Part shown: piece by piece, positions 12,187 through 31,419 of the stretch
How the letters are laid out: each line of letters starts with the position of its first letter
Position numbering within the stretch: position 1 is the first letter of the stretch
NCBI RefSeq assembly: GCF_000337535.1
Contig: NZ_AOIP01000022.1
Span: forward strand, 1 to 32,799
Direction: 5' to 3'
Source: Natrialba aegyptia DSM 13077
GTDB taxonomy: Archaea > Halobacteriota > Halobacteria > Halobacteriales > Natrialbaceae
Length of the DNA stretch: 32,799 nt
The notes under the pieces: generated by a model
Databases searched by the model: none
The model's input: only the letters and a program-made list of their open reading frames with translations
What the model was told of the DNA's origin: nothing
Program-made: the position numbers and the translations under genes

Positions 12187-12837
12187 ATGAGTCAGTCACA
12201 ACAGTCTGAGCACCAGCAGTCGGGAGCACAGTATGCCGATCACGATTGGTGGGGGAACAATGATGTTGACGACGAATCGACAACCGGTCACGACCCGGCA
12301 GAGTTTCACTACAAGCGCGAGCGAGCGCAGTGGGTCGCACACGATATCCTCAAGCAAGCGGCCACGCTTGCCTGCCCGATCGCGCTGAATGCTGACCCAA
12401 ATCGCCTTGCATCACTGTTCGAGTGGCTTGAGAACGGCACCGCACGGACAGGGCACGACCCAGATGCGATGCACACGGATAACGAGGTCGTTGAGCTGAC
12501 TGATCCTGAGATATACATGCCGTTGCAGACAAGCGAGGACTATGGCGGCCGTCCACTCGAGTATGGCCAGCGTCCGAGCCGGTCGCGGATCAACCCTGAA
12601 CACGGATACATCGTCGGCCCGCAGATTCTCGACATGGCAGAGGACGAGTTCCTTGCGATTATCGATATGGTGCTCGATCACCTCGTCGCTGATTCCGCTA
12701 TCGGCCTGTCAAAACGTGAACGCGACAAACTTGCTCGTGATTCGCGGCGACTGAAACAGGCCGGCGATCGACGTGATACGGACGTGCTGGCAACGATAAT
12801 CCACGATGCAACGTCGGACGGACCTATTATCGAGTAA
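12187..12837 (+). CDS. Hypothetical acidic protein, first gene of the surface/ATPase block
   Basis: 216 aa soluble protein with a Gln/Ser/His-rich start (MSQSQQSEHQQSGAQYADHD). A helical region follows (RAQWVAHDILKQAATLACPI, with Arg/Leu-rich helices), then a Pro/Tyr/Arg-rich middle. The C-terminal helical domain contains 'GPQILDMAEDEFLAIIDMVL' and 'LSKRERDKLARDSRRLKQAG'. No membrane segment or signal. The next gene starts 10 bp downstream, so they are probably co-transcribed. Family not recognised; it may be a regulatory or scaffolding subunit. Confidence 0.65.
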   Translation: MSQSQQSEHQQSGAQYADHDWWGNNDVDDESTTGHDPAEFHYKRERAQWVAHDILKQAATLACPIALNADPNRLASLFEWLENGTARTGHDPDAMHTDNEVVELTDPEIYMPLQTSEDYGGRPLEYGQRPSRSRINPEHGYIVGPQILDMAEDEFLAIIDMVLDHLVADSAIGLSKRERDKLARDSRRLKQAGDRRDTDVLATIIHDATSDGPIIE

Positions 12838-12847
12838 CGGATTCTCT

Positions 12848-15800
12848 ATGAGACGCAAACGCACCCAGAGCGACGCGGATAGCCGCTGGTTTCGGCTGAC
12901 CAGTGCGATCACCTCATCTTTGCCGTCTATCACACGCGGCCAGGCTCGAGCGCTGTTGTTCGTGCTTGTGATGGTCTCGTCGATCGTGGCAATGCCGTTG
13001 ATTGATGGGTTCGATAGCGGAACGGCCGCGGCAACGTCAGACAACACACTCCCGAAACTGACAGCCCAGGATAGCACGGATGACGATATCTCCTATTCGG
13101 GAGGAACTAATAACGCGGTCACAGCGACAAATGCGGAGACTGGCGAACTCATATGGAATTTTACTGGGCACTCGGATAACGTCCTATCAGTTGCCCCGTC
13201 TCCGTCGGGAGATGTCGTGTATAGTAGCTCATCGGACACAACGGTAAAAGCAATCGACGCGGCGACGGGAGACGAAATATGGGAGTCGACGGTCTTCTCG
13301 ACTGGAGTCCAAACGGTTGCCCCTGCTCCCTCTGGAGATTACGTTTTCGCTGGCGGTGATGGGGTAGTCCGCGCACTTGATCCGGATACAGGCGATGAGG
13401 TCTGGAATTTTACCGGGCATACATCCTGGGTACAGTCGATAGGTCCATCCCCCTCGGGTGCCACCGTCTACACTGGATCGGGAGATAACACAGTCCGCGC
13501 GCTCGATGCGGAAACGGGCGACCAGGTTTGGGAGTTTGCTGGTCACTCAAGTACGGTCCGGACAGTTGCACCGTCGCCATCGGGTGACGTTATTTACAGT
13601 GGCTCATCAGACGCCACAATAAAGGCTGTAGACGCATCGACAGGCGATCTTGCATGGGAAATCGACAATCCTGGAACCACTGCATACTCTCTCTATCCGA
13701 CGCCATCGGGCGAATCACTTGTTACTGCATTTGGCGATGACACCATCCGGAAACTAGACTCGGATACAGGCGATGAAATATGGAACTCAACTGCACACAC
13801 AGATGCGGCATATGCTGTTGTTGCATCTCCATCGGGAGACTATGTCTTTAGTGGAGCACAGGATGGGACAGTTCGCGCACTTGACCCAGATACAGGCGAT
13901 GAAATACGGACACTTGTCGAGAATGCAGGCAACGTTCAGTCAGTTGCGGCAGCAGGGATGTACGCACCGCCGACAGAGCCAATCACTGGCCAAGTCACCG
14001 ACCAACATGGAGACCCAGTCTCGAACGCAACAGTCGAAGTTTGGGGGACCAACCCACCGAACTTCGATGAATCGTCTCTCTCCGACTTGAACTCAACGAT
14101 AGCTGACCTTGAATCTCAGGTTGAAAACCCACTTCCAGAGGATTTCGAAGAGTTCCGCGACGAGTTCGAAACCGGAGATGGACATCTCGACTCTGAGACG
14201 TTCTCAAGTGATATCGACGGAACCTATCCGCTCGTGCATCAAGAAGACGACTGGGGGAGCGGGGCTACTACAATCCTGAGCCAAGAGGTTGATGACCCGC
14301 GTCTAACCGTCGACAGCGGAGAAACTATTGTCCTTACGCTGTGGGATGCGACTGAACAGTCGGGGTTCTTGAGCGCAGATGGCCCGATCGATAATTCCCA
14401 CCCTGGAGAGGTGACTGGAGGTACAATTGTCGTTGAACAGATCGATCCGATGGGAGATGGAATCGATCGTCAAGAGTTCGATACCCAACCAACCTACAAA
14501 ACGACCACGAGCCTGTCCGAAGGATGGGGTGGCGACGAGTATCATGCAGTTCAGACAACCCTGCAGACGGGCGTCTATCGCGTCTACCCCGAAGACCATC
14601 CAGAACGGGCATATTCGTTCACTGTCGGCTCGCCAACCGATATCGCGGACTCGATCGTGAACGATTTCGAGGACAAGATTGTTAGTCTGGAAGGCCAGCA
14701 AGAGCGAATCAGCGACCTGCTCAACGACGAGCGAATCGTTCGCAAAACCGTCCAGGCGAACGAAACTGGCGAGTTCAGCGTCGATATGCCGTCGGGAGTT
14801 GAAGACGCAAATGTCCACGCCATGCGCGCGAACGGGTCGATTTTGCAGGGACTGGAAGATCCGTCGATGGACGATCTTCGCGATGCCCAACTCGGTGACT
14901 ATAACGGTAGTTTCTACCTTCCCTCACCGGAACCGAATGTCGTCTCACCACCTGCCCAGGATGTCGACGTGACAGTTTACCGAAGCCCTGAACTCCCGTA
15001 CGGTGATATTGAGTCGTTCTCGGATCTCATGTCGTTCCTTGACGAGCAGCGCTTGAACGAGACGGTCGAGGAACTTCGAAATGAGTACGATCAACGATTC
15101 AGTGAAATGGAACGTTCGACTCTTGAGCGCGTCTACGACAGCCACCGAACCTTGGTTGAAACCGTTCCGGGCGCGGAAAGACGCTATCTCGACCGGTCCG
15201 AGTTCGAGGAGATCCAGAACGCATCGGACCTCTCGGAAGACGAGCTGTCGACCGAGACGAATCACATGCAGCTCGCACTTGCAGGAATCGGAGAGATCGA
15301 CCCTCCCGACCTCGGCGACGAGAACCCGATCGACATCGGCGATGACGGCCTCAACCTCGAATATCCGCTTCCCGACGGCGTCAATCCTGACTCAATCGCT
15401 CCCGAGATCCACTGGACCGATGGAACCGTTGAGCCGATCGGCGAGGAATACTGGTCAGTCGAGTCCGGCGGCATCCTTGGAAGCGATACGCTCGTTATCG
15501 AGGACCTGCCGATCGACAACTCCGATCCAGCCGCGTTCGACGTTCGCGTCCAGGCTGCGTCAGATGATGGCGTGCTTGACGACCGCGTGTCCGGTACGAA
15601 CCCGGCGTTCGGTGGTTCGCTACCCGAGATCGATGCGGTTGACTTTTCGACGCTGGCTCCCGGTCCAAGCGAGCGCGTCTACGTCGGCCTCGATGCCGCA
15701 GACGGCACAGGCTACGACTCGCTCGTCAGCGCCGAAGCGTGGGCTGCCGACGGCACCGAGTTGAATGCAACCATCGACGAATCACGCGATCGGGCGACCT

Positions 15801-16498
15801 TCAGAACCGACGGCGAAGGCACGCACACGGTCCGACTTACGTTCGAGACTCAGCAGGGAGAGCAGATTGTGGTCTCTGAACGCGTCCGCGCGCACGAACA
15901 ATCTCGGTCGGACCCAGCGACAGTACGAGCCGCCGACGGGACGCTCGGGACCTACGCAGTCACGGGCGAACGCTTGGATTCGGCACGAATCGAATCGAGC
16001 GCTGGCACACTCCGCGTCGACGTGATTGCTGACGACAGCGACGGTCCGGGTGAGTTGCATATCAAGCCAGCAAACGCGATGACCGGCACCGAACACCGGT
16101 TCGAGGTCAACGTGCTCCATGGTAGCTCCGAAGAACAGGTGTCTGCTCAAGTTCCCGTCCGACTCCACCTCGAAGGACTGGAAGAAGAGGGCGCGCTGTT
16201 CTGGCGCTCTGACGATGGCTTCGGCGGCGACCCGATCACGTGGGATGGCTCAACGAGATATGGAGAAGTATCGTGGCAGGGCGACGGTAAGGCCGTGCTT
16301 CGGACCTACACAACTCCGTCCGGAACCCTTGACGTGACGACCATCCAGTCGGCCGGTTATCTGGACCGACTCACACATCGCATCGCTCGCACGCTCACGG
16401 GCCTGCCGTCCCCACTGATGGTGTTCCCATCGGGTAGGTTCGTCGGTCTGCTCGGACTCGCCGGTATCGTTCGCCGTCGACGGAGGTTTTCCCAATGA
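12848..16498 (+). CDS. Giant surface protein: seven-bladed propeller, Ig-like and coiled-coil regions, C-terminal anchor
   Basis: 1216 aa. Start ATG 12848 places a basic tail and one hydrophobic segment (ARALLFVLVMVSSIVAMPLI, about 37-56) as a Sec signal or anchor. Residues about 80-370 hold seven PQQ/WD40-like repeats of about 41 residues; each ends in a 'DxxTGDxxW'-type turn and contains 'PSPSGD-VxxSGS'. Next come a carboxypeptidase-regulatory-like strand set (ITGQVTDQHGDPVSNATVEV), a coiled coil, long extracellular beta regions with a second coiled coil (SFLDEQRLNETVEELRNEYD), and a C-terminal hydrophobic segment ending in RRRRRF. The stop-transfer/basic end suggests the bulk lies outside the cell. 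It overlaps the protease gene by ATGA. Likely an adhesin, spike or scaffold of the apparatus; no known homologue is recognised. Confidence 0.82.
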   Translation: MRRKRTQSDADSRWFRLTSAITSSLPSITRGQARALLFVLVMVSSIVAMPLIDGFDSGTAAATSDNTLPKLTAQDSTDDDISYSGGTNNAVTATNAETGELIWNFTGHSDNVLSVAPSPSGDVVYSSSSDTTVKAIDAATGDEIWESTVFSTGVQTVAPAPSGDYVFAGGDGVVRALDPDTGDEVWNFTGHTSWVQSIGPSPSGATVYTGSGDNTVRALDAETGDQVWEFAGHSSTVRTVAPSPSGDVIYSGSSDATIKAVDASTGDLAWEIDNPGTTAYSLYPTPSGESLVTAFGDDTIRKLDSDTGDEIWNSTAHTDAAYAVVASPSGDYVFSGAQDGTVRALDPDTGDEIRTLVENAGNVQSVAAAGMYAPPTEPITGQVTDQHGDPVSNATVEVWGTNPPNFDESSLSDLNSTIADLESQVENPLPEDFEEFRDEFETGDGHLDSETFSSDIDGTYPLVHQEDDWGSGATTILSQEVDDPRLTVDSGETIVLTLWDATEQSGFLSADGPIDNSHPGEVTGGTIVVEQIDPMGDGIDRQEFDTQPTYKTTTSLSEGWGGDEYHAVQTTLQTGVYRVYPEDHPERAYSFTVGSPTDIADSIVNDFEDKIVSLEGQQERISDLLNDERIVRKTVQANETGEFSVDMPSGVEDANVHAMRANGSILQGLEDPSMDDLRDAQLGDYNGSFYLPSPEPNVVSPPAQDVDVTVYRSPELPYGDIESFSDLMSFLDEQRLNETVEELRNEYDQRFSEMERSTLERVYDSHRTLVETVPGAERRYLDRSEFEEIQNASDLSEDELSTETNHMQLALAGIGEIDPPDLGDENPIDIGDDGLNLEYPLPDGVNPDSIAPEIHWTDGTVEPIGEEYWSVESGGILGSDTLVIEDLPIDNSDPAAFDVRVQAASDDGVLDDRVSGTNPAFGGSLPEIDAVDFSTLAPGPSERVYVGLDAADGTGYDSLVSAEAWAADGTELNATIDESRDRATFRTDGEGTHTVRLTFETQQGEQIVVSERVRAHEQSRSDPATVRAADGTLGTYAVTGERLDSARIESSAGTLRVDVIADDSDGPGELHIKPANAMTGTEHRFEVNVLHGSSEEQVSAQVPVRLHLEGLEEEGALFWRSDDGFGGDPITWDGSTRYGEVSWQGDGKAVLRTYTTPSGTLDVTTIQSAGYLDRLTHRIARTLTGLPSPLMVFPSGRFVGLLGLAGIVRRRRRFSQ

Positions 16499-18036
16499 CA
16501 CGACACACACGACGTGAATATCTGTACGGCATCGGTGCGACTGGTATGGCGGTCGCAAGCCTTGCTCCGACAACCGAACCGGGACTGCTCGGCTGGGATC
16601 GGCCCGACGATGCAATCGTGCACAGTGACGATCGGCCGAGTTGGATCGTCTCGGTTGAGGGCGACGACGCCGACGAGCGGGCGGACAATCTAAGCGCACT
16701 GCGCGACTGGGTTGCGTCAGCGAATAACCGTGAGCTCATTCCCGAGCGCGAGCACGAGGGCAGTGGCGTGGCGACGATAATTTCGTCACCCAGCGATATC
16801 GGTGCCCGAAACCGTGAACGCTGGCTCGGTGACGGTCTTCAGTCCCTCTCCTATATCGATTCGATTGAACTGAATCGGTCGGTCTCGCTGGCCGATCCGC
16901 TGACCCCAGAGAGTTCATCGGCCTGGTCCTCACCAGGACCCATGCAGTCGCTGTTACTCTCGACGTTTGCTGATGGCTCTCCGGGCTCAAGCGGTGTGGC
17001 CTTCGATTCCGATATGGACGGCGGGGAGATGACCAACGCTCGCGAAGCCACGTCCGCAACCGCAACCGACCTCACACTGCCTGATACGTCGTCGGTGACG
17101 GTCGCGGTGGTCGATACCGGAGTCAGCGCCAACGGCTATCTCGAGGACGATAGCGGCAACACACGACTCCTCGATTCATCGACGAACTTCGTTGAAGATG
17201 GTGATCCCTCAGGTGTCGGCGAAACCCGAGACGGAAACGGACACGGGGACTGGGTTGCGGCGTGCTATGCAGCAAATACCGACGATCGGCTGCGTGGCTT
17301 CCTCCCCGAAGCGAACGTCCTCGCGTGCAAGGCGCTCTCGGATGCCGGCAGCGGCTCGTTATCGGATATTGCAGCGGCAATCCGTCACGCTGCCGATGAA
17401 GGTGCTGATCTCATCAACCTCTCGCTCGGCTCACCCCAGTTCAGCCAGTCGATCGAGGATGCGCTATCATACGCGGTCAAACAGGGCTCAATCCCCGTTG
17501 CCGCGAACGGAAACGACCGGCAAGCGACCCGCTGGCTTGCGTTCCCTGCATCAAGCGAGAACGCGATTGCTGTCGGTTCGACGACGGTTGATCCGCCCGA
17601 GGACGCTCGAAGCGCCTATTACTCGAACGTTGGGCCGCACAACGGCTATACTGACCTATCGGAGGGTGCAACGGCTGGCGCAGAACCGGACGTTGGCGCG
17701 CCGGGCTGCAAACTCGAGTCCGCTTCGGGCGACACTCTCACAGGCACGAGCATGGCCGGACCGGTCGCGGGCGGGGTGATCGGGCTCTATGTCGCGGACA
17801 CTGGCACGACGGATCTTGAAACAGTCCGCGACGAGCTGACCGCGACTGCTGAACCGATTCCGAACGCAGCCAGCGAGGAGATCGGCGCTGGAATGCCGAA
17901 CGCTGAAAACCTGCTTTCGGGAACGGAACCCGACGAACCACAAGAGGACGCTGTTACGACCGAGGCAGCATCCCGTGGCGCGGCCTACGACTTCTTGTCT
18001 GGAAGTCGCTATACCCGCCTCATCGCGAACTTTTAG
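16495..18036 (+). CDS. Tat-exported subtilisin-like serine protease (S8 family, halolysin-like)
   Basis: 513 aa. The N-terminus TRREYLYGIGATGMAVASLA is a twin-arginine signal, as in halolysins. After a prodomain-like region (to about 195) the catalytic triad is clear: D207 in VAVVDTGVS, H250 in GNGHGDWVA and S419 in LTGTSMAGPVAGG. The oxyanion Asn lies in VAANGND. The C-terminal tail (about 465-513) is acidic and ends in a short basic/aromatic segment. Enzyme class is well supported: an extracellular endopeptidase. Its ATG overlaps the stop of the giant surface protein, so the likely substrate is that protein or another exported product of the block. Confidence 0.93.
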   Translation: MTRHTRREYLYGIGATGMAVASLAPTTEPGLLGWDRPDDAIVHSDDRPSWIVSVEGDDADERADNLSALRDWVASANNRELIPEREHEGSGVATIISSPSDIGARNRERWLGDGLQSLSYIDSIELNRSVSLADPLTPESSSAWSSPGPMQSLLLSTFADGSPGSSGVAFDSDMDGGEMTNAREATSATATDLTLPDTSSVTVAVVDTGVSANGYLEDDSGNTRLLDSSTNFVEDGDPSGVGETRDGNGHGDWVAACYAANTDDRLRGFLPEANVLACKALSDAGSGSLSDIAAAIRHAADEGADLINLSLGSPQFSQSIEDALSYAVKQGSIPVAANGNDRQATRWLAFPASSENAIAVGSTTVDPPEDARSAYYSNVGPHNGYTDLSEGATAGAEPDVGAPGCKLESASGDTLTGTSMAGPVAGGVIGLYVADTGTTDLETVRDELTATAEPIPNAASEEIGAGMPNAENLLSGTEPDEPQEDAVTTEAASRGAAYDFLSGSRYTRLIANF

Positions 18037-18039: not shown

Positions 18040-18813
18040 ATGTTCTCACGACGCCAGTTCATCGTCTCGGCGAGTGCCACGGCCGCCGCTATCGCTGTAC
18101 CGGGGCTTGTCAGTGCGGAGACGCCCGAGTGGTCGCCCGATCACATCACGATGACCGGCGACGATGAAGACGAACTCCGGCGCTACCAACCCTATCTCGA
18201 TATCCCGTGGGCAGACCAGCAGTCACTCATCGGCGTCTACGGGTGGTTCGCAGAGAGCGAGGATTATGATACTCGCGCGTACTACTACTGGGCAAAATAT
18301 AATTCGCAGAACTCGCTGTTCGACGCACTTCCGCTCATTGGCGGCCTATTCAGCGAGGACGCCCATTTCGGAGATCACGAACCCGTGATCGTCCTTGCGG
18401 ACCCCGACAGCGGCGAAGTTCAACGAGTGCTCTACTCGGGCTACCATCACTTCGCTGTCGACATTTCGGGAGAGGACATGACGCTCGTCGAGGACGCTGA
18501 GTCCTACCCGACTCATCCCTCGTTGCAAGTTGCGGTGCCCCATCACCACTTCCGGCACCAACGTGACGACTCGCGCACGATTGCTGCGTCGTCGATCTCG
18601 GGCGCGGAGTTCGGTTCGTTTCTGGACCAGCGGTCCAGTTGGGAGCAAAACGGCGTGTTCGACTCATCGAGCGACACGGCTATCGCAGACCCGTGGGCTA
18701 TGTCGGACCGTGGAACCTGGTGGGACGAGAGCACGACCGACTACCAGTTCGCTCGCATCCGGGTCTTGCTGAATTGGCGAGATAGCGACCACGACGAGTT
18801 GATTCGCGAATGA
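18040..18813 (+). CDS. Tat-exported hypothetical protein
   Basis: 257 aa. Starts MFSRRQFIVSASATAAAIAV with a Tat signal and a probable cleavage near PGLVSAE. The mature part is rich in Tyr/Trp/His: 'YDTRAYYYWAKYNSQNS', 'FGDHEPVIVLADPDSGEVQR', 'VLYSGYHHFAVDI', 'LQVAVPHHHFRHQR'. The 'Y-Y-W ... H-E-P/W ... His-rich' order loosely recalls NPP1/Vps62-type beta-sandwich proteins, but this is a weak impression. It follows the protease by 3 bp and is clearly in the same operon. Likely extracellular; possibly metal-binding via the His cluster. Confidence 0.72.
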   Translation: MFSRRQFIVSASATAAAIAVPGLVSAETPEWSPDHITMTGDDEDELRRYQPYLDIPWADQQSLIGVYGWFAESEDYDTRAYYYWAKYNSQNSLFDALPLIGGLFSEDAHFGDHEPVIVLADPDSGEVQRVLYSGYHHFAVDISGEDMTLVEDAESYPTHPSLQVAVPHHHFRHQRDDSRTIAASSISGAEFGSFLDQRSSWEQNGVFDSSSDTAIADPWAMSDRGTWWDESTTDYQFARIRVLLNWRDSDHDELIRE

Positions 18814-18921: not shown

Positions 18922-19956
18922 ATGAGACCCATCTTTCGCAAGTTCGCAACGCTGTTCCTCGTCCTAGCTGTCGTCACGTCCGGCCTCGGTGCTTTCGCCG
19001 GGGGCGTGGCCGCCGAGACAACGACGCTGGCCGGCGACGGCACTGATGAGGTTACAGACTTCAACGCATCGGCTTCTGACCACATCGAATACAACCTAAC
19101 TGCAGATGACGGAACGAATGGTTTTGATGGCGATGGGACGACAACGGCACGTCTGAACATCACCTACGACGGCAATGAGTACGTCTCAGTCACGGACTCC
19201 ATCGATGATACCACAGCCACGAGCTACATCATCAACGTGAGCCAGGACGAACTTGAGAAGCTTCCTGGCGACGCAACGGAGTCGACGGCTGTCAACGTGA
19301 CTGCATGGGGCGAGGACTCAGAGGGTAACGAGACGACGACGGCTGACTCGTTCAGTGCCGACGTAACGTTCAACGAGTTCCGTTCTGTTCGGACCGTCCA
19401 CACGACGAACGACTCGATCGTCAACAACTTCGAGGCCGCTGACGACGATGGCGGTCTGTTCGCGTCGCTGTCGAGTTTCAACGTGTTCTCGTCGACGCTC
19501 GATAGTTCGGCTGAACTCGAGGACACTGTCGGTGTCTCCGGCACGACTACCGACATCCAGGTCTATAGCGAGGATTCTGATCTGACTGACGCCTTTGACG
19601 CAGCCGCAGAGGACGCTAACTCTGGCGACCGACTCGGCTACCTCATGACCTCAACGCTTGACGGGCAGATCCTGCGCGTCTACAACGAGGAGCCCGGTGC
19701 GAAGTACCCTGGCGGCGATAACGTCACAGAGACTGACGACACCTACGCTGTCTACGACGGGAACGGACAGCTCACGGTCAACCTCGGCGAGGACCGCTAC
19801 GACGCTGACACGACTGAGGTTGACATGACGATCGTCTCCGGTGAGGACGTTGGCTCGTCGGCCCTGCAGGAGGATCTGGACTACAGCATCTTCCAGGCGT
19901 GGGGTCTGAGCTTCGGCTCGCTGTCTGAGACCCTGAGCGACCTGCTGCCGTTCTAA
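18922..19956 (+). CDS. Secreted, heavily glycosylatable surface protein
   Basis: 344 aa. A Sec signal peptide (MRPIFRKFATLFLVLAVVTS..., cleavage near GGVAAET) is followed by an acidic Thr/Asp/Ser-rich beta protein. It holds at least eight N-glycosylation sequons (for example NAS, NLT, NIT, NVS, NVT, NET). The C-terminal 30 residues (DYSIFQAWGLSFGSLSETLS then DLLPF) are more hydrophobic and could be a membrane-interacting or sorting tail. No LPXTG/PGF-type anchor is seen. Its own leader and regular codon use are consistent with high expression: a candidate major structural or spike-type protein of the apparatus. The 3' end (CTGCTGCCGTTCT) is repeated at the end of the next gene, followed by a tRNA-like hairpin. 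Confidence 0.75.
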   Translation: MRPIFRKFATLFLVLAVVTSGLGAFAGGVAAETTTLAGDGTDEVTDFNASASDHIEYNLTADDGTNGFDGDGTTTARLNITYDGNEYVSVTDSIDDTTATSYIINVSQDELEKLPGDATESTAVNVTAWGEDSEGNETTTADSFSADVTFNEFRSVRTVHTTNDSIVNNFEAADDDGGLFASLSSFNVFSSTLDSSAELEDTVGVSGTTTDIQVYSEDSDLTDAFDAAAEDANSGDRLGYLMTSTLDGQILRVYNEEPGAKYPGGDNVTETDDTYAVYDGNGQLTVNLGEDRYDADTTEVDMTIVSGEDVGSSALQEDLDYSIFQAWGLSFGSLSETLSDLLPF

Positions 19957-23377: not shown

Positions 23378-23386
23378 GCCGGCGTG

Positions 23387-23602
23387 ATGGCGCTCCAATT
23401 CGCGGATACGTTCGACAATCCTTCCGAATCGACTGCTCGGGTCTACATTCCGGCCGAGATCGTCACAGACTCAGCGTTCCCCTTCGGACCAGGCGACTCC
23501 TACGTTCTGCGTGTCGCTCGTCACGAGGGCTTTGCCGTCACGCCGCCGGATTCTGACCGCGAGACCATCGACCTGCCGCCAATCAACGAGGAGATCCTAT
23601 GA
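23387..23602 (+). CDS. Small beta-rich protein, first gene of the second transcription unit
   Basis: 71 aa. MALQFADTFDNPSESTARVY, then 'IPAEIVTDSAFPFGPGDSYV', 'LRVARHEGFAVTPPDSDR' and an acidic end. The 'VYIPAEIVTDSAFPFxPGDxYxLRV' stretch looks like a small beta-barrel (AbrB-like swapped-hairpin or similar), the fold of DNA-binding or adaptor proteins. That is an impression only. It has a good Shine-Dalgarno at 23373-23377 and an ATGA overlap with the next gene. A regulator of its own promoter is plausible. Confidence 0.65.
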   Translation: MALQFADTFDNPSESTARVYIPAEIVTDSAFPFGPGDSYVLRVARHEGFAVTPPDSDRETIDLPPINEEIL

Positions 23603-24183
23603 GACCAGAGAAACGCGTTGACGAAGCGCAACAGCGACGAAAACGGATCGATCGGCTATACGAACACTTCGACGACGTGGTTGGGCTGATAACCGAGAAT
23701 GACCTGCAAGACGCCGTGCTCGACTGGATGGATGACGCCGACCAGGTGCCGGCGACATCGATTTTGACCCATATCGAGACGATGCTCGCCGAGTTTGAAA
23801 CTGAACACGACATGTACGCCGTCGACGTGAACGGGGCTGACCACTTCCCCGATGACTGCTCGGACTGCGAGCACTACGGCGTTGCTTGCCCCGTAATCAC
23901 GAATCGGTACGAGGAGATCGAGCGCGAGCGCCTACAAAAGCGCTTGCGCGGGGCCGGTGAGGACGAAGTGAAACGCGAACTTCGGCGGTATGCCGGTCGA
24001 AACGGCTGCGAGGCGATGATTAACGAAATCGACGAGTGGGAAAGCGACTACCGAGAACTGCTCACGGAAGGCCGTGAACTCCGTCGGAAGACCTTCCACT
24101 ATCTTCGCCAGGCCGACGATCGCGAACAGGCCGATACCGCAATCGGTGAATCAGTCGCTGACGCCACGGAGGGACTACCGTGA
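23599..24183 (+). CDS. Helical protein with Cys cluster (possible metal-binding)
   Basis: 194 aa, soluble. Long charged helices: 'DEAQQRRKRIDRLYEHFDDV', 'ERERLQKRLRGAGEDEVKRE' and 'ESDYRELLTEGRELRRKTFH'. A central 'DDCSDCEHYGVACPVITNRY' supplies three clustered Cys plus His, suiting a zinc or iron-sulfur site; one more Cys lies downstream (GRNGCEAM). Start and stop are coupled to both neighbours by 4-nt overlaps. Unknown family; probably a cytoplasmic subunit joining the membrane proteins and the ATPase. Confidence 0.68.
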   Translation: MRPEKRVDEAQQRRKRIDRLYEHFDDVVGLITENDLQDAVLDWMDDADQVPATSILTHIETMLAEFETEHDMYAVDVNGADHFPDDCSDCEHYGVACPVITNRYEEIERERLQKRLRGAGEDEVKRELRRYAGRNGCEAMINEIDEWESDYRELLTEGRELRRKTFHYLRQADDREQADTAIGESVADATEGLP

Positions 24184-25208
24184 ACTGGAATTACGTCCTT
24201 ATCGGTGCAGTGGCTATCGGTGTCCTGCTCGTCATCGGATATCTCGTCGAACGCTGGGGTGTCTTCGAGGACTCCCGCGCAGCGACGGGGGCCAACCGTG
24301 TCGATCGGTCCGAGACAGGACCCGAAACACGGCCTCGAATCCCGGTTCGAGACAAACCCCGGCAACTCCCGTTCGAACTCAAGGTCATTTCTTTTTGTCT
24401 CATCGGAATTGCCGGCATCGTGGCGTTCTACACCTACCAGTTCCTCAAAAACGGCAGTCCGGCCGAGTTCCAGTACACGACACAACTACAATTCGCGGCC
24501 ACAGCCTTACTCGGCGTCGGGGCCGGCGTTGCCTATCGTGGCTACAAGGACGGCGATGTCGGGGAGATTCACCTGATCAACGAGTCCGAGAACGGCGATA
24601 TCACGAGCGAACGGACGATTCCCTTCGACCGGGCGTCGGCTGAACGGCTCGATGATGGACGCATGCTCATCAAAGAGCTTCGCGATGAGCGTATCTTCGG
24701 CCTCTTCCGACGGTTCAAACTCGTGGGTCACGACCGGAAACTTCGGTCCGACCGGCCCCTCGGCGATATCGTCACTCACGAAATCCACTCCGATGCGGTG
24801 CAGCTCGACGAGGGCAAGTGGGTCATGCGAACGCAGGGACAGATCACCGTCGACGGTGGCACGAACAAACCTGCTGACTACCGCTACCACCCACCGCTGC
24901 GGCTTCCGTATGAGAAACAGGTCAAACAGCAAGAGCAGATGCGGAAAATGAGGATTGAAACCAAATCGATTCGAGCGCAACTCGCGGAGGCACACAACCA
25001 GATCGGCGATCTCGTCCGGATTCTCGAGAACAGCGAGCACCGTCAGCGCGAGGAACTGAAAGACGACCTGCGGGACATCAAGGAACTCGTCGGTCCGTCG
25101 CAAGAACACGTCACAGTCCAACAGAGCCGTGGCCAGCAGCGCCGTCAGGTGCGTAGCCAACGCGATATCTCGAATCACGAGAACGGTTCCGCGGGAGGTG
25201 AGGCATGA
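24180..25208 (+). CDS. Membrane protein with large cytoplasmic coiled-coil domain
   Basis: 342 aa, GTG start in a GTGA overlap. Transmembrane segments at about 5-22 (YVLIGAVAIGVLLVIGYL), 67-87 (LKVISFCLIGIAGIVAFYTY) and 102-118 (QLQFAATALLGVGAGVAY). The rest is cytoplasmic: a beta-rich region (about 125-235) with many Arg/Asp, then a coiled coil (about 240-305, 'MRIETKSIRAQLAEAHNQIG' onward) and a Gln/Arg-rich tail. This could be a docking platform for the ATPase encoded three genes downstream. Family not recognised. Confidence 0.72.
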   Translation: MNWNYVLIGAVAIGVLLVIGYLVERWGVFEDSRAATGANRVDRSETGPETRPRIPVRDKPRQLPFELKVISFCLIGIAGIVAFYTYQFLKNGSPAEFQYTTQLQFAATALLGVGAGVAYRGYKDGDVGEIHLINESENGDITSERTIPFDRASAERLDDGRMLIKELRDERIFGLFRRFKLVGHDRKLRSDRPLGDIVTHEIHSDAVQLDEGKWVMRTQGQITVDGGTNKPADYRYHPPLRLPYEKQVKQQEQMRKMRIETKSIRAQLAEAHNQIGDLVRILENSEHRQREELKDDLRDIKELVGPSQEHVTVQQSRGQQRRQVRSQRDISNHENGSAGGEA

Positions 25209-26443
25209 ACCGACGCGTCGCGATACTGGCGGTCTGTCTCATCCTCGTGAGTGCCGTTATGCCAGCCGCTGCGGCGGTGGGTCCATCAGCCGACGCTGGG
25301 GCCGCCGACACCGCAACACCGTCCTACGCGGTGCAAGAAGCAAACGAGACGGACGGCAATGCACCGACGAGTGCTGAACAGGTCCGCATTAATCCCGTCT
25401 CTCTCGATGTGGATTACCAGGCCGTCGAGGTCGCGGAAGACGACTCGACGTTCAACACGACCGGCGAGTTCGTTCTGTTTTCGACAACTGAGCCCGTCGA
25501 TGCGGTCCGTATCTCACAGTCCAAGGCGACAGCACGAGTGCTCGAAGGGGGCCAGACGGTCCGCGTCGAGTACGCCGATGATGCTGCCCCGCCGGACGAA
25601 CAGTCGCTCTACACGCTTGAGGTGTTCTTCGAGGACGGCTCGTCGAAAGACGTGACACTGTACGCGTCGGCAACGGAGCAAAGCGTCAATGCGGCATCGC
25701 TCGAACGCTGGGAACCGGTCATCTCGACCCTACAGGACTTCGCAGAGGAGAACGGCTACGAGACCGATCCCGACAGCGTCGAATCCTACATCACGTGGGT
25801 CGACGATCGTGCTCAACTCGTCGACGGGTTCCTGACTGAACTCGCGGCCCAGACGATTGCCTGGCTCATTGCTGGTGTGATGAATCCGCTGAACGTGATT
25901 CTCGCACTCGCACTCGGCGCGCTCGCGATGTGGCGGCGGCGCTCGAAACATGGCGATCTCGTCGACGCACTTTCGAGCATGGCCGGCCGGTACGAACAGG
26001 AACTCGCCAAACTGCGGAACAACCGCCAGCAGGCGAAGCGTACTGCCGACGACGATAACCTCTCCGAGGTGCCAGCGATCGGTAGCTACGCCGACTACTA
26101 CGAGGATGCATTCGGTGTCAAGTCACCGGCCCAACTCGCTCACCTTGTTGCAGCGGGTGAAGCTCGAGCGACCAACGACGGTCTCGAAATGGTTCACAAC
26201 GGCGTTGACGACCTCGATTCCGAGGACCTACATGGGACGTGGCTCGAACCCGTGCTCCGCCATATCCCCAACGAACGGCAGGTCCTGAATCACCTCTTGC
26301 AGACGATCAAATACATGGAAACGGAACATCAACTCGGGTCGGTTTACCGCGAGACGCGCAACGACCTCGAAGTGATGCTTGACGATATCGAGCGCAAACA
26401 GACTCGGATAACCGGAACGCCGGCGGCGACGGGGGACGACTAG
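25205..26443 (+). CDS. Single-pass membrane protein: extracellular beta domain, TM, cytoplasmic helical domain
   Basis: 412 aa. Sec signal MNRRVAILAVCLILVSAVMP with cleavage near AAAA. The extracellular part (about 25-210) is acidic and beta-rich ('SLDVDYQAVEVAEDDSTFNT', 'EFVLFSTTEPVDAVRISQSK', 'TVRVEYADDAAPPDEQSLYT'). A long hydrophobic segment at about 213-241 ends in WRRRSK, the stop-transfer signal. The cytoplasmic part (about 245-412) is helical ('MAGRYEQELAKLRNNRQQAK', 'NHLLQTIKYMETEHQLGSVY'). It links outside and inside, like a coupling protein of a membrane-spanning machine. Its ATG overlaps the previous stop and the next gene abuts its stop directly. Confidence 0.75.
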   Translation: MNRRVAILAVCLILVSAVMPAAAAVGPSADAGAADTATPSYAVQEANETDGNAPTSAEQVRINPVSLDVDYQAVEVAEDDSTFNTTGEFVLFSTTEPVDAVRISQSKATARVLEGGQTVRVEYADDAAPPDEQSLYTLEVFFEDGSSKDVTLYASATEQSVNAASLERWEPVISTLQDFAEENGYETDPDSVESYITWVDDRAQLVDGFLTELAAQTIAWLIAGVMNPLNVILALALGALAMWRRRSKHGDLVDALSSMAGRYEQELAKLRNNRQQAKRTADDDNLSEVPAIGSYADYYEDAFGVKSPAQLAHLVAAGEARATNDGLEMVHNGVDDLDSEDLHGTWLEPVLRHIPNERQVLNHLLQTIKYMETEHQLGSVYRETRNDLEVMLDDIERKQTRITGTPAATGDD

Positions 26444-28075
26444 ATGGAGCAACTTCTCTACATCGCGACCGGCCTTGTGCTACTGGGACTCGCTGCCGTC
26501 GCTGGGTTGTTCTGGCGAGAGATACTCGATGTGAGCCGATCGGTTGCGACGACGGCTCGCTACCGGTTCAAACAGGGTATTGTAGGCTTTCTCATGGGCT
26601 CTCACCCGAATACGTCTCGACTCCTCGCGACGGTCGTCATCGGAAGCGGACTCGTCGCCGGGGCTGGCGTAATCGGGCTCATGGTCAATCAGGCTGAGAC
26701 AAGCACGTCGTCCGCCCCGATCGTGACGACAGTACTCGGGTTCGCAACGAGCCCGTGGGTGTGGGCGCTCGCGATCATCCTGCTCTGCCGGCAGTTGCTC
26801 TTTTTCGGCGACCGACTCCTCGCCAGGATTACGGCACGGAGATCCGGCTTCAGCTACAAGACGATTCGCCGACTCGCCGAGGAAGCCAAGCAACCGGACT
26901 TGGACCGCTGTGAACGCGTGTTGGTTCAGTCGGGTGACAGCGCCGAGCAAATCGCTGAGTGGGTCCGTGCGGCTTTCGACGGCGACGGTCATGGGACGCC
27001 AACGTTCACGCCGGCGGATGTAGACGACGACCCCGACGAACAGGGCGCTGGTCCGTCGGCCACTGAACCCACTGACCTTGCCCGCCGAGACCCGAACAGG
27101 CCGATCGACGTGGCTCCGAACTCCGAAGACGAGTCGGACCCGGACTTTTGGACGCAACTCCGACTGTTCCGTCTTGAGCTAGCGTCGGCAGTCGACCTGA
27201 ACGGTGTCCTCTGGCGGTTCCTCGTGCCAGCAGGACTCACGTTCGTTGGCGTGATGCTCTGGCTTCGCATTTGGATTCAACTGTGGTTCTTGCCAGTCGT
27301 CGTCGCGATTTCGGTGTTCGTCGGCGGGACCTACTACTGGGCCGTTGACCTCCGTCACCGTCGCCGACTGCGGGCGCTGCGGGCCGACGATGATCCGACA
27401 CGCTGGACCGATCTGGCGATCCTCACGAAGACCGTCGACGTACCCGAGACCACGATGTACTACGGCTATCTCGACGGGAACGTGTACGCGAGCGAGGACA
27501 AGTATGAACTCGCGGAGACACTCGCTGATCGGGCGATCGACCGGCTTGAGGGCCGCCAACCCGCTCCGGCAATCGAGGAGACCAACGCCTATCTGCTCAA
27601 ACGATACCTGCCGATGCTCGAAGCGTGGGTCCAAGAACACGAACGCAAGGCGATTATGGACCAACTCATCGATATGGTCGCTGACGCGCCGGAAGGACTC
27701 CTTCCGCGGGATATCCTCATCGATGAGGTAATCGAGTACGACCGCCGGTATGCTGCATGGGGCTTGATCTTCATCGGCCGAGGGCGAGATCCCGATCTCG
27801 TTCGCGAGGTCTACTGCGATCTTGTCGAGATCCACGCGCTCGCGGAGACGCCCGTGACGGTCTCCGACACCGAAACTGGCGACGAACGCGAGCTGGTCGC
27901 TGTCTCGAAAGGTGATGAGTCGTTCCCGCCGAACGTCGTGCAACTCCGTGGCGAGTTCTCATCGCTATTCGGTAAGCAAGCCTTCGAGACGCGGTACGAT
28001 CCCCCAGAGATTGAGACCGACATGTCACCAGCCCCGTTCGTGCGACCAGAAACGCATGAGCAAGCCGATAACTGA
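26444..28075 (+). CDS. Multi-pass membrane protein with large cytoplasmic domains, beside the ATPase gene
   Basis: 543 aa. Hydrophobic segments at about 5-24, 61-80, 93-120 and two more around 255-300 (LWRFLVPAGLTFVGVMLWLR, then WFLPVVVAISVFVGGTYYWA), so about five TM helices. A charged loop (130-245) lies between the sets. The C-terminal 240 residues are cytoplasmic, with a conserved-looking helical domain ('YGYLDGNVYASEDKYELAET', 'YLLKRYLPMLEAWVQEHERK') and a Pro-rich end. Membrane partner immediately before a P-loop ATPase suggests they act together, as in DNA-transfer or genome-packaging machines. Not recognised as VirB6, VirB8 or TraG-type membrane domain. Confidence 0.75.
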   Translation: MEQLLYIATGLVLLGLAAVAGLFWREILDVSRSVATTARYRFKQGIVGFLMGSHPNTSRLLATVVIGSGLVAGAGVIGLMVNQAETSTSSAPIVTTVLGFATSPWVWALAIILLCRQLLFFGDRLLARITARRSGFSYKTIRRLAEEAKQPDLDRCERVLVQSGDSAEQIAEWVRAAFDGDGHGTPTFTPADVDDDPDEQGAGPSATEPTDLARRDPNRPIDVAPNSEDESDPDFWTQLRLFRLELASAVDLNGVLWRFLVPAGLTFVGVMLWLRIWIQLWFLPVVVAISVFVGGTYYWAVDLRHRRRLRALRADDDPTRWTDLAILTKTVDVPETTMYYGYLDGNVYASEDKYELAETLADRAIDRLEGRQPAPAIEETNAYLLKRYLPMLEAWVQEHERKAIMDQLIDMVADAPEGLLPRDILIDEVIEYDRRYAAWGLIFIGRGRDPDLVREVYCDLVEIHALAETPVTVSDTETGDERELVAVSKGDESFPPNVVQLRGEFSSLFGKQAFETRYDPPEIETDMSPAPFVRPETHEQADN

Positions 28076-28089: not shown

Positions 28090-30459
28090 ATGAGTTCAGA
28101 AACCAGCCTTCACCAGCCGAGTGACAACACTGAAACGAGAGTCGCTGTTCGGAACAAACTCTCCTCTCGAATCGAACAGCAACGGCGCAAAGAGGAGCTA
28201 AATACAGAGGCTTATGTCCGCGAACTAATTCGCGAGGCCGAGAACGCTATCGTCGGCGAAAACGATACTGGCCGCCAACCAGAGGAGATTCTTGAGGAAC
28301 TACACCTCTACCTCTGGCATGACCCGGATCGGCCGGTAGCTACCACTGAGGCAGACGTAGAACCGGACATGATCTACCGGTTCAATCAGATTCATCGTCG
28401 ATTCGAAACAGGCCACGATATCGATGCCGCCACGTGGTTCGAGATTCTGGTCGCCGTCGCGAAGGGCCTTGGGATCGTTGAAGCGTTCTCGGATCTCACG
28501 CAGTATGCACCGGTCAGACTGGAAACACTGGACGAACAGGGCCGCCAGAGTAACGTCGAGACGGCGACGCCGATCGGTCGGCGTCGGATCGGTGCCGACG
28601 ACGCGGCCGACCTGGAAGACCGCGCCGTCGAAATCACGCACTCGTCGTGTGACCACATTCTCGCGGTCGCACTCCCGCGCTCGGGCAAGGACTCGACGAT
28701 CACCAGTATCGGGATGAACCTCTGGAACGAGCACAACTACTCGTATTTCAGCATCCTCGACGACGGACGGATGGAAACGCCGATGATCTCGATTCCGAAT
28801 GACGAGAAAGCGATTCGGGAGAATCTCGATCGGATGGGACAGGAACCAGCGGCGTTCAACGCCGAGGTACTTGTCCCTGCAATGGATGGAATCCCGGCGA
28901 AGCTACCGGCGAACTTCCGCCCGTTCACGATTGGAATTGATGATCTGACGCCCCACCTAATCCTTCGTCTCGCTGGGATTACCAAGTCCGATGCGAACAC
29001 CGAGCAGCGGATCAAACAGGCGTTGGATAAGACGCTTGAACGGACTGGTGAAGTCACGGAGTTGGTATCGCGATTGCAGGTATACGCCGAGGAAATGGAC
29101 GCGACAATCGAGTGGACCGAAAAGCGCGACAGCAGTGCCAGCGACGGCAACGGCGTACAGACCAAAAGCGTTCAGTACCACATGGAAGCGGAGGACGCGC
29201 TGAATAAGGCGGCTCAGCGGCTCGCACACCTCGCTGGTGAGGGTCTGGTTGCTTCGCCCGAAGCCGAGACGAACATCAACATGCAGTCGGTAATTGCAAA
29301 CCAGGACCAGGCGAGCGTTCTGTGCTGCAATTTCCTCTCGCAGGGCCAAGAGGCGCTGAAATATACGATCATGGACCTCTGGCTGCGGCTGATCTACAAG
29401 GCTCGCGACCAGAACAGTCGTCTCCCGCGAGTCTGTCTCGAAATTCGAGAACTGAAGAATATCGCCCCGAGTAAACTGGCCGACGTCCGGTACAAAGACA
29501 CGATCAAAACGCTCCGACAGACGATATTCTTCATCTCGACACAGGGTGGGAGTCGACGGATTCTGATGCTCGGATCGACGCAGAAACTGAACGACGTGTA
29601 CAAGCCCGTCCGATCGAACATGGCGACGAAGATCCTGCTCCGTCTCGGCGAGGAAGAGATCGAGACGCTGGATCGGTCGTACAATTTCAGTAACGAGCAG
29701 ATGGACCAGCTCTCAGAGTTCAACATCGGGCAGGGAATGATCCTTGCCGGTGGTGACGCGTTCTGGCCGCTCGAGTTCCGCGGTGCGCCGTGTGGTCTCG
29801 GTCTCGGCGATCGTCATTGGCTCGATCGCTATGGCATCGCGTGGGGGGCTCGCGTCCGCGAAACCGAGTACGACGGTTGGCACTCGAAACACGGCGACTG
29901 CGAGTACTGGGTGGATCTCACCGAGCATACAGTCGTCACTGACGAGTCGGTTCCCGAAGTTGGGACGTGGCACTTGCTTCCCGAGGATTTCGACGACGAT
30001 CTGGCTCCCGCTGACGTGGACCAAGACGCGATTGATGCAGCCCTACAGCGCCGTCGTGACTATCCCGTTCCGGCAGACCTCTCGTTGCAATCGACCGGGT
30101 TCGGTGATCGGCAGCGTGAACTCTCCCTTCAACAGCAAGACCGCGATACGACGCTTTCGGAGGTCGTCGAGCGCCACAACATCCCCGAGTCAATCGCACC
30201 GTGGCTTTCGAAAGAGGCCCCGACGCGCAAGCAGTTGGTCGCGACCTGTCGGGCCGTCGACGAGCATGATGACCTCAAACGGCAGGAAGATATTGCTGAG
30301 AATATCGGTTGGACACGTAGTACGCTCTCTAGGCACCTTGGAAAAAGCGACAGTCTCGAGAAGTGTATCACGCAAAACGGGAAGTACTACGAACTCACGC
30401 CGATCGGCAAGCGAGCGGCTAAGATCAGGTGGGATGTTGTGATGGAGGAGCTGAAATAG
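28090..30459 (+). CDS. P-loop ATPase of the FtsK/HerA/VirD4-like type with C-terminal winged helix
   Basis: 789 aa, no membrane segment. The N-terminal 180 residues are helical. A Walker A-like loop HILAVALPRSGKDSTITSIG has GK at 199-200, with Ala in place of the first Gly and D201 after the Lys. The Walker B-like strand RVCLEIRELKNIAPSKL has E451 and E454 instead of a DE pair. 'RQTIFFISTQGGSRRILMLG' (about 475-495) then 'TQKLNDVYKPVRSNMATKIL' match the 'Q/N near P-loop partner strand' of HerA/VirD4 coupling ATPases. Residues about 735-789 form a winged HTH (RQEDIAENIGWTRSTLSRHL then a 'GKYYELTPIGKRAAKI' wing). It is a likely DNA-pumping or DNA-sorting motor that docks to the membrane proteins upstream. 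The atypical motifs lower certainty. Confidence 0.75.
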   Translation: MSSETSLHQPSDNTETRVAVRNKLSSRIEQQRRKEELNTEAYVRELIREAENAIVGENDTGRQPEEILEELHLYLWHDPDRPVATTEADVEPDMIYRFNQIHRRFETGHDIDAATWFEILVAVAKGLGIVEAFSDLTQYAPVRLETLDEQGRQSNVETATPIGRRRIGADDAADLEDRAVEITHSSCDHILAVALPRSGKDSTITSIGMNLWNEHNYSYFSILDDGRMETPMISIPNDEKAIRENLDRMGQEPAAFNAEVLVPAMDGIPAKLPANFRPFTIGIDDLTPHLILRLAGITKSDANTEQRIKQALDKTLERTGEVTELVSRLQVYAEEMDATIEWTEKRDSSASDGNGVQTKSVQYHMEAEDALNKAAQRLAHLAGEGLVASPEAETNINMQSVIANQDQASVLCCNFLSQGQEALKYTIMDLWLRLIYKARDQNSRLPRVCLEIRELKNIAPSKLADVRYKDTIKTLRQTIFFISTQGGSRRILMLGSTQKLNDVYKPVRSNMATKILLRLGEEEIETLDRSYNFSNEQMDQLSEFNIGQGMILAGGDAFWPLEFRGAPCGLGLGDRHWLDRYGIAWGARVRETEYDGWHSKHGDCEYWVDLTEHTVVTDESVPEVGTWHLLPEDFDDDLAPADVDQDAIDAALQRRRDYPVPADLSLQSTGFGDRQRELSLQQQDRDTTLSEVVERHNIPESIAPWLSKEAPTRKQLVATCRAVDEHDDLKRQEDIAENIGWTRSTLSRHLGKSDSLEKCITQNGKYYELTPIGKRAAKIRWDVVMEELK

Positions 30460-30471
30460 GGGTTTTCGAGT

Positions 30472-31419
30472 ATGGGGCAACACGATGACCCGATGAAAGC
30501 GTTCACCGAGTTTTTCACCGGACCATACCGTGCTGAAGTGCAGAGACTCGATAATGAATATCCTGACGAGCAATCGCTTCGAATCGATTGGCACACCCTC
30601 GAGTCGTGGGACGGCTCGGTCGCCGACGAGATCCTCCGGAAGCCTGCTCGCATGCGGCAATTTGCAACGAACGCACTGAACCGTCTCGACGACGCCTCAC
30701 TACTCGGCGTCAATGTCCGCGTCTACAATCTTCCCGATCGACAAACTGTTCGCGTCGGGAAGTACCGAACGCGGCAACTCGGCCAGCTACTCTCCGTTCG
30801 CGGAAAGGTTGTCGATATGGAGGGTGTGAAACCGTATGCGGAGGAAGCGGCGTTTGAATGCCCGCTCTGTGGAACCCTCTCGAGAATGCCACAGAGCTAC
30901 GGCGACCTCATGAAACCGAACGAATGCATGGGTTGTGAGCACTCAAAGCCCGGGTTCATATTCAAACGAGAACAGTCTGAACTCGTCGATCTCCAAAAGA
31001 TCGTCATTATCCCACCGGATAGCAATCTCGACGAACCGCCGGCGACGATCGCGTTTCTAAAAAACGATCTCGTCGACATGGTCGGCCCCGGTGACTTCGT
31101 GACCATCAACGGGATCTACGAGACGTTTGCTGGCCAAAGTGAGTCAACGCTCTCAACGTATATTGAAGTACTCGACCTCGATATCGAAGAACGGATCGAG
31201 ATCGACACCTACGGCGCAAGTGAGATTCAAGAGTTCATCATGGAGACGCTCACTGATCGAATCGAAGTGACTGACGACTGGGCTGTTCCACGAGCCGAAG
31301 TTGTTGACGCAGTCGTCGATGCACATGGTGTTCGTCGCGAAGAGATTGATGACCAGATCAACGCGTTGATTGACGAGAATAAGATTGGAAATGAAGGGGC
31401 GAAACTATTCGATATTTGA
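30472..31419 (+). CDS. MCM-like protein lacking the AAA+ motor: N-terminal OB/zinc domain fused to winged helix
   Basis: 315 aa. Residues 1-80 match the MCM A-domain pattern ('FTEFFTGPYRAEVQRL', 'LRIDWHTLESWDGSVADEIL', 'PARMRQFATNALNRL'). Next come 'VRVYNLPDRQTVRVGKYRTR' and 'LGQLLSVRGKVVDMEGVKPY', the MCM OB-fold hallmark. A zinc ribbon follows with C130-x2-C133-x18-C152-x2-C155. A second OB part, 'LVDLQKIVIIPP', ends in 'DMVGPGDFVTINGIYETF'. In a helicase the AAA+ core would follow; instead the protein passes directly to a C-terminal winged helix (about 245-315, 'EIQEFIMETLTDRIEV' to 'LIDENKIGNEGAKLFDI'). No Walker motifs are present. It may bind or regulate host MCM, or act as ssDNA-binding protein with the ATPase 12 bp upstream. 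Confidence 0.85.
   Translation: MGQHDDPMKAFTEFFTGPYRAEVQRLDNEYPDEQSLRIDWHTLESWDGSVADEILRKPARMRQFATNALNRLDDASLLGVNVRVYNLPDRQTVRVGKYRTRQLGQLLSVRGKVVDMEGVKPYAEEAAFECPLCGTLSRMPQSYGDLMKPNECMGCEHSKPGFIFKREQSELVDLQKIVIIPPDSNLDEPPATIAFLKNDLVDMVGPGDFVTINGIYETFAGQSESTLSTYIEVLDLDIEERIEIDTYGASEIQEFIMETLTDRIEVTDDWAVPRAEVVDAVVDAHGVRREEIDDQINALIDENKIGNEGAKLFDI

Follow-up and report, generated by a model that had tools for sequence, protein, structure and literature searches.

A pR1SE-type plasmid-vesicle core in Natrialba aegyptia and its diverged relatives among haloarchaeal plasmids

The window analyzed here, 32,799 nucleotides from Natrialba aegyptia DSM 13077 (NZ_AOIP01000022.1), carries a block of co-oriented genes that, judged from homology, represents a single and already known system: the core of the plasmid pR1SE and related plasmid-vesicle elements (apHPVs), known from the work of Erdmann et al. 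(2017, cited through PMC10818511) and of Lucking et al. (2023; PMC10818511). In our view, the block is likely to form the dissemination core of a plasmid of the pR1SE type, in which the surface cluster would make the vesicle and target it, and the membrane/ATPase cluster would load plasmid DNA. Comparison with relatives also indicates that some of these plasmids, regarded so far as degraded remnants, are whole, combining interchangeable surface parts with a second and strongly different half for DNA handling. The first-pass annotation had proposed one surface-to-DNA apparatus, possibly a novel system. The apparatus is borne out as one of plasmid-vesicle type, collinear with pR1SE and with both halves co-occurring, and the novelty is not, so that this interpretation is partly supported overall; for this copy, the proposed roles as adhesin and in DNA transfer are putative.

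Gene content of the block and its match to pR1SE

Inspection of the open reading frames of the window indicates about 17 genuine genes at 12187-31419, all on the + strand. Cluster 1 (12187-19956) encodes surface proteins and cluster 2 (21747-31419) a membrane complex and an ATPase (percentages are identities):

12187..12837, +, preORF6, small conserved gene 5' of ORF6 (34% to pR1SE WP_088901255 over 153 aa)
12806..16498, +, ORF6 homolog, giant exported surface protein (27% to pR1SE ORF6 over 1216 aa)
16495..18036, +, ORF7 homolog, Tat-exported subtilase, S8 (32% to pR1SE ORF7; PF00082)
18040..18813, +, ORF8 homolog, Tat-exported, H-x2-D-x-E motif (HFGDHEP; 33% to pR1SE ORF8)
18922..19956, +, ORF9 homolog, Sec-exported surface/coat protein (25% to pR1SE ORF9)
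20448..21095, +, cl4 family, Tat-exported, 215 aa (pR1SE counterpart at KX687704 16713-17450)
21098..21301, +, basic protein, 67 aa (67-73% in three plasmids)
21747..22697, +, ORF17 homolog, Sec-exported, C-terminal TM, opens cluster 2 (33% to pR1SE ORF17)
22694..22930, +, ORF18 homolog, TM, 78 aa (32% to pR1SE; 61-73% to three plasmids)
22918..23217, +, ORF19 homolog, TM, 99 aa (33% to pR1SE)
23384..23602, +, ORF20 homolog, 72 aa, GTG start (44% to pR1SE ORF20)
23599..24183, +, ORF21 homolog, soluble (33% to pR1SE ORF21)
24180..25208, +, ORF22 homolog, TM (25% to pR1SE; class II counterpart cl9)
25205..26443, +, ORF23 homolog, exported domain, TM and cytoplasmic tail (32% to pR1SE)
26444..28075, +, ORF24 homolog, multi-TM, cytoplasmic C-terminal domain (29% to pR1SE)
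28090..30459, +, ORF25 homolog, HerA/FtsK-like P-loop ATPase (41% to pR1SE ORF25 over 823 aa)
30472..31419, +, MCM N-terminal/OB-domain protein, 315 aa, zinc Cys4 motif, adjoins ORF25 (Pfam MCM_OB/MCM_N only)

The co-orientation of the block is confirmed. Three frames (18810-19046, 20011-20451 and 21141-21731) are spurious; they overlap other frames and have low GC3. The repeated 4-nt overlaps are present as ATGA at 16495/16498, 22694/22697, 23599/23602, 24180/24183 and 25205/25208. Three Tat signals are likewise visible, in the subtilase (MTRHTRREYLYG), the 18040 gene (MFSRRQFIV) and the 20448 gene (RRVSRRAFV), and Sec-type N-termini occur at 18922, 21747 and 25205. TM segments can be seen in several block proteins. 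Pfam recognized the WD40/PQQ propeller (E 6.5e-59), the subtilase (6.4e-35) and the MCM OB domain (1.2e-15), and gave no match for most other block proteins.

Homologues of pR1SE ORF6-9 and ORF17-25 keep their order and orientation in the window. All six proteins used to recognize apHPVs (ORF6, 8, 17, 21, 23 and 24, at least five of which are required) were recovered by tblastn against pR1SE, with E-values from 1e-22 to 1e-113. The layout is that of an apHPV, with syntenic clusters ORF6-9 and ORF17, 21, 23-25 on either side of a variable region, and the host is a haloarchaeon (Halobacteria). With pR1SE (Halorubrum lacusprofundi, KX687704) and the apHPVs the window thus shares the published core, ORF18-20 and ORF22. 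However, its surface cassette is just 25-33% identical to that of pR1SE, the replication genes differ, and pR1SE lacks the short MCM-like gene beside ORF25. In comparison with G186, a near relative, dN/dS was 0.006-0.19 in the ten genes for which it could be computed, indicating purifying selection that is strongest in ORF22 (0.006). Since the block is collinear with pR1SE and other haloarchaeal plasmids and is under such selection, it is more than a chance arrangement. The contig (58,646 bp) also carries ParA, integrase and Cdc6-like genes; its ends do not overlap and it is not closed, so the element is a putative plasmid.

In cluster 1, the ORF6 homologue has an N-terminal propeller (Pfam WD40/PQQ_2) and ends in a TM segment and a basic tail. 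As noted in the first pass, a protease adjoins it, the ORF7 subtilase, with visible D/H/S motifs. Subtilases of Bacillus phages match ORF7; these are ordinary subtilases and uninformative on virus origin. The ORF8 motif (H109/D112/E114) is invariant in our alignment A5 and present in 36 of 44 homologues. For this protein, alignment-free AlphaFold reached a pLDDT of 34, without a usable model, and a profile search against PDB sequences returned nothing credible.

The ORF25 homologue displays ALPRSGKDS, a RELK-type Walker B, GSTQK and a winged-helix C-terminus, its Walker A and STQ motifs being conserved among homologues (alignment A1). The proposed HerA/VirD4-like ATPase stands on motifs and weak matches, and not on a Pfam family match, none exceeding the curated cut-off. 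Superfamily matches were weak and came from members of a second class of elements described below (DUF87/HerA, best 2.8e-4; FtsK, 8.4e-4), and a PADLOC scan gave a mad8 match at 8e-4. Alignment-free AlphaFold yielded no usable model (pLDDT 36.5). Profiles of ORF25, of its class II counterpart and of ORF23 found nothing credible among PDB sequences; 8qyd matches ORF25 at E 0.0018, outside the P-loop.

These features could also suit a cell-contact conjugation machine of the archaeal T4SS/Ced type, with ORF25 as coupling ATPase and ORF24 as a VirB6/CedA-like channel: a HerA-superfamily-like ATPase adjoins multi-TM proteins, class II members give the HerA and FtsK matches just cited, and class II ORF24 has 10-12 TM segments. 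We regard this as unlikely. Families of VirB4, VirD4/TraG and relaxases were unmatched by the block proteins in Pfam, NCBIfam and PHROGs, in agreement with the absence of T4SS hallmarks noted earlier, and all 15 ATPase-carrying plasmids typed with MOB-suite were non-mobilizable. Moreover, pR1SE is reported to move between cells without cell contact (PMC10818511).

Co-occurrence of the two halves and a second class of elements

A core of propeller, subtilase, membrane and ATPase genes conserved together across haloarchaea was the check proposed for a single system, and it came out positive. In 391 haloarchaeal genomes, an ORF25-family ATPase occurs in 39 of the 41 with the ORF8 surface gene, which is itself found in 39 of the 40 with the ATPase (Fisher p ~4e-50). 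The alternative, two unrelated operons placed side by side, one for surface or adhesion functions and one for DNA processing, had been raised by 15 genomes with ORF8 and without ORF25. It agrees with the literature, where cluster 1 is described as standing alone in many elements (34 'incomplete' ones, possibly remnants; PMC10818511) and with the sharp recombination boundary between the halves. However, 13 of the 15 cluster-1-only genomes hold a diverged cluster 2, the other two having decayed or single-gene loci. The two-operon reading was dropped once this class II was found; it is largely refuted by the co-occurrence, and we judge it extremely unlikely.

Class II is thus a highly diverged second cluster present in nearly all of the 'cluster-1-only' elements of our sample. 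One-to-one hhalign comparisons with class I gave 99.1% for the ATPase (E 1e-18, 519 columns), 97.5% for ORF17 (cl6), 97.6% for ORF22 (cl9), 96% for ORF23 (cl7) and 95% for ORF24 (cl14, whose longer members have 10-12 TM segments), the remaining pairings staying at or below 35%. Examples are found in Salinigranum rubrum (NZ_CP026314), Halomontanus rarus (NZ_CP135527), Natrinema pallidum (NZ_CP040639) and Natronorubrum daqingense (NZ_CP019330), and the class II cluster occurs on a circular plasmid of 39 kb. These elements share the ORF25-type ATPase with the window, and those of S. rubrum and N. daqingense combine its cluster 1 families with the remote ORF17, 22, 23 and 24 homologues. Unlike in the window, the class II ATPase has a canonical Walker A (GGTGxGKS in most) and lies 5' of ORF22-24; a MoxR-VWA pair is sometimes present, and no short MCM was seen. 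Profiles of preORF6 match in loci of both classes. The cl4 gene, located between the two clusters and absent from the core list of the apHPV paper (PMC10818511), is shared by the class I loci and by most of the class II loci that were examined.

Exchange of surface cassettes

Between 19933 and 32118, the window and G186 are 95.7-96.4% identical at the DNA level, whereas their proteins from preORF6 to ORF9 share just 41-49% identity; the swapped cassette ends at about 19933, within the ORF9 homologue. Similarly, pHTUR05 (Haloterrigena turkmenica) and pHALXA03 (Halopiger xanaduensis) are mostly 67-85% identical to the window in cluster 2, short MCM included, but mostly 27-45% in cluster 1, and so carry another surface cassette. 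In the ORF8 tree, classes I and II intermingle, with at least ten class changes on supported branches, and class II as a single clade is rejected (p-AU 3e-69). The classes mix likewise in the trees of ORF7, ORF9 and cl4. The surface cassette is therefore interchangeable, recombining between near-identical backbones and between class I and class II pump types.

Pleolipoviruses exchange their structural genes in a modular fashion. This resemblance, and the virus-like dissemination of pR1SE, would fit a divergent, pleolipovirus-like membrane virus instead of a plasmid, a reading that we hold very unlikely. PHROG matches were limited to the MCM and the subtilase among the proteins scanned, relatives of ORF25 are absent from phage records and IMG/VR and those of ORF8 from IMG/VR, and the PHROG matches included no spike or capsid family, as the first pass had also noted, nor a Pleolipoviridae membrane protein.

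The short MCM-like protein and a model for vesicle loading

The first-pass annotation had an MCM-like DNA-binding protein next to the ATPase. Its N-terminal and OB domains are present (PDB 1ltl matched at 2.4e-34), and we correct this assignment in one respect: Pfam detects no AAA+ helicase domain. The protein shares the N-terminal A/OB domains and zinc motif of archaeal and eukaryotic MCM helicases, and differs in lacking the helicase domain that defines a replicative MCM. In 15 of 27 genomes, an open frame for such a short MCM (238-466 aa) lies 3' of ORF25, and the short forms make up one clade (100/99), separate from all full-length MCMs sampled. From the missing domain and the single clade, we take the short MCM to be a probable partner of the pump that binds DNA, and not a replicative helicase. 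It is not essential, as pR1SE itself lacks it.

In the plasmid-vesicle model that we favor, the exported proteins of cluster 1 would shape, coat and target a membrane vesicle carrying the plasmid. In favor of it, pR1SE travels in vesicles, in which every core protein except ORF25 was detected; experiments on apHPVs, including the production of plasmid vesicles that infect cells free of the plasmid, concern pR1SE alone (PMC10818511). The giant propeller protein ORF6 and the coat-like ORF9 would be components of its surface, the ORF7 subtilase would process particle proteins, and ORF8 may act on membranes. The membrane complex of ORF17-24 would form a docking platform for the HerA/FtsK-like ATPase ORF25, which would load plasmid DNA into the budding vesicle, aided by the helicase-less MCM N-terminal ring gripping the DNA. 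As to direction, transport by the pump could be of DNA outward to particles, of DNA inward on entry, or of proteins.

More broadly, the data point, with fairly good confidence, to two anciently diverged DNA-loading machines drawing on one pool of freely exchanged surface cassettes, the 'incomplete' elements being a second complete lineage, and to an MCM ring recruited from replication, with which the pump is paired in many elements of class I. In the 391-genome sample, the number of species having both halves rises from 26 to 39. Three points become testable in this way: surface and DNA-loading halves as separate exchangeable modules, the completeness and possible activity of elements of the type published as 'incomplete', and a frequent role in DNA loading, instead of 'replication', for the MCM gene reported earlier. 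Plasmid vesicles are intermediate between plasmids and viruses, and the window adds one member.

The block and its relation to pR1SE

The block at 12187-31419 (plus strand), which lies in the window, the initial 32.8 kb of the 58.6-kb contig C21, had been described in the first-pass annotation as about 18 co-oriented genes with 4-nt overlaps and Tat and Sec exports. Our reading of the open frames keeps this layout, with several 4-base overlaps and three Tat and several Sec signals, and lowers the count to about 17 genuine genes. Pfam searches matched a WD40/PQQ propeller, a subtilase and MCM N-terminal/OB domains, and gave nothing convincing for the block's other proteins.

A tblastn search of plasmids with the 789-aa ATPase (homologous to ORF25 of pR1SE) retrieved 15 records, all haloarchaeal (15/15) and pR1SE among them. 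This plasmid spreads in self-encoded vesicles, in which every core product but ORF25 was detected, and belongs to the family named apHPV, defined by two clusters, ORF6-9 and ORF17/21/23-25, that are conserved among its members (Lucking et al., 2023; PMC10818511). Compared gene by gene, the window has homologues of ORF6, 7, 8, 9, 17, 18, 19, 20, 21, 22, 23, 24 and 25, in the order and strand of pR1SE and at 25-44% protein identity. Cluster 2 (ORF17-25) of pHTUR05 and pHALXA03 is closer, mostly at 67-85%, with one small protein down to 51%. Given this shared homology and gene order, the block is not a novel system, which the first-pass annotation had considered possible, but a further member of a known plasmid-vesicle kind (PMC10818511), most of whose parts have no assigned function. 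Two other genes lie outside the core:

5635-6747, minus strand: Cdc6/Orc1-like AAA protein, likely the replication initiator of the window's replicon
9932-10495, minus strand: archaeal type IV pilin-domain gene near the core (Pfam 1.4e-23; GC3 unusually low, 0.42)

Pilin-domain genes also occur near the elements at loci L004, L015 and L127. Positions 31645-32799 (to 33279 on C21) encode a conserved protein of ~500 aa with no Pfam match, found downstream of the core, on either strand, in most examined plasmids with the pR1SE-type cluster 2 (class I).

Co-occurrence of surface genes and ATPase, and a diverged second cluster

We searched 391 haloarchaeal genomes for ORF25, ORF23 and ORF8. ORF25 is present in 27. 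ORF23 has the same distribution, with two fragments in addition, and ORF8 is present in 41, 15 of them without ORF25. At most of these 15 loci cluster 1 (ORF6-9) is followed by another conserved gene set, here called class II: an exported protein of about the size of ORF17, small TM proteins and a P-loop ATPase of 670-770 aa, then ORF22-sized, ORF23-sized and 10-12 TM proteins. Direct BLAST between the classes did not link the ORF17-, 22-, 23- and 24-type proteins. Profile-profile comparison paired the class II ATPase with ORF25 (99.1%, E 1e-18) and families cl6 with ORF17 (97.5%), cl9 with ORF22 (97.6%), cl7 with ORF23 (96.0%) and cl14 with ORF24 (95.0%); all remaining pairings reached at most 35%, so the correspondence is one to one. 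For the ATPase, ORF24 and ORF23 the pairing was repeated on alignments built separately. Class II in Salinigranum rubrum is not remnant-like, since it lies on a complete circular plasmid of 39,196 bp that also encodes ParA, Cdc6 and an integrase. An insertion behind the ATPase of two genes, for a MoxR-type AAA ATPase and a VWA protein, is confined to some class II elements (L052, L053, L061; e.g. L052 14695-17138).

Strong matches to the class II ATPase occur in 15 genomes of the sample, all of which carry ORF8. Thirteen belong to the set of 15 that lack ORF25, and G090 and G120 hold both classes. An ORF25-family ATPase is thus present in 39/41 ORF8 genomes, and ORF8 in 39/40 ATPase genomes (Fisher p ~4e-50), a co-occurrence that for class II is partly by construction, its profile having been built from loci found through ORF8; independent of this are the absence of class II ATPase copies elsewhere in the sample and the homology to ORF25. 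Two ORF8 genomes have neither ATPase (G298, a decayed locus; G024, a lone ORF8), and in one ATPase genome (G288) cluster 2 genes occur but ORF6-9 do not. These counts bear out the earlier view of surface genes and ATPase as one system.

Exchange of the surface cassette

Classes I and II are mixed in the ORF8 tree (44 rows), where well-supported branches force at least 10 class changes and a single class II clade is rejected (p-AU 3e-69); ORF8 is nearly identical in pHTUR05 (class I) and genome G296 (class II). The trees of ORF7, ORF9 and cl4, the last a newly noted protein of these elements, are likewise mixed, with at least 5-6 class changes. Between the window and its congener G186, DNA identity is 91% over 10356-11626 and 95.7-96.4% over 19933-32118, with an insertion in G186 near window position 23,300. 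The genes between these flanks, from preORF6 (a small gene upstream of ORF6) to ORF9, share 41-49% protein identity and differ in arrangement. This amounts to the exchange of a cassette of ~8 kb that spans cluster 1. A longer ORF8 paralogue stands beside ORF8 in several elements (L004, 6-8 kb; L010, 5.7-7.6 kb; L013; L056), indicating duplication within cassettes.

The short MCM-like protein and a possible mechanism

MCM proteins near 20 elements were previously counted as replication candidates, most likely host-derived (Lucking et al., PMC10818511). The gene downstream of ORF25 in 15 of the 27 ORF25 genomes is a short form (open frames of 238-466 aa) matching the MCM N-terminal half only; it is present in the window, whereas pR1SE lacks it. 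The short forms, the window's included, make up one clade (100/99) separate from every full-length MCM sampled, whether chromosomal or plasmid-borne. Having no AAA+ domain, the short MCM cannot be a helicase; as the neighbour of a DNA ATPase, it may be a ring that binds DNA or an adaptor in loading. The window's genome also holds the remnant of a second class I element (contig C55, 29771-31523, minus strand; L007 14772-16785). There, beside a winged-helix gene, the last ~200 aa of ORF25 continue in frame into a short MCM that is 61% identical to that of the window, by natural fusion or a lost stop. In Natronorubrum daqingense a shorter second ORF25 paralogue lies between ORF25 and the short MCM, forming a tandem ATPase pair (G120 C3:56588-58261, minus strand; L013 22501-24168).

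As to the direction of DNA movement and the role of each protein, we infer that cluster 1 products would build and target the vesicle, with ORF7 maturing surface proteins and ORF8 possibly acting on membranes, and that cluster 2 would load DNA. Homologues of ORF8 were reported to be similar in fold to NEP1-like proteins (PMC10818511). The H-x2-D-x-E motif of ORF8 is invariant in alignment A5 and present in 36/44 homologues. Its spacing is presumably that of the NLP metal site, which serves as a lead only. Cluster 2 is under purifying selection, with dN/dS lowest in ORF22 (0.006) and 0.034 in ORF25.

In the literature covered, which is incomplete, we found no later paper reporting two loading machines, a shared cassette pool or a recruited MCM domain. 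For cluster-1-only elements, of which 34 were published as incomplete and possibly remnants (PMC10818511), the finding of a second, diverged cluster applies to those in the 391-genome sample. The comparison as a whole shows that plasmids of this kind have two diverged machines, putatively for DNA loading, draw their surface cassettes from a common pool, and in part carry an MCM N-terminal domain that was probably recruited.
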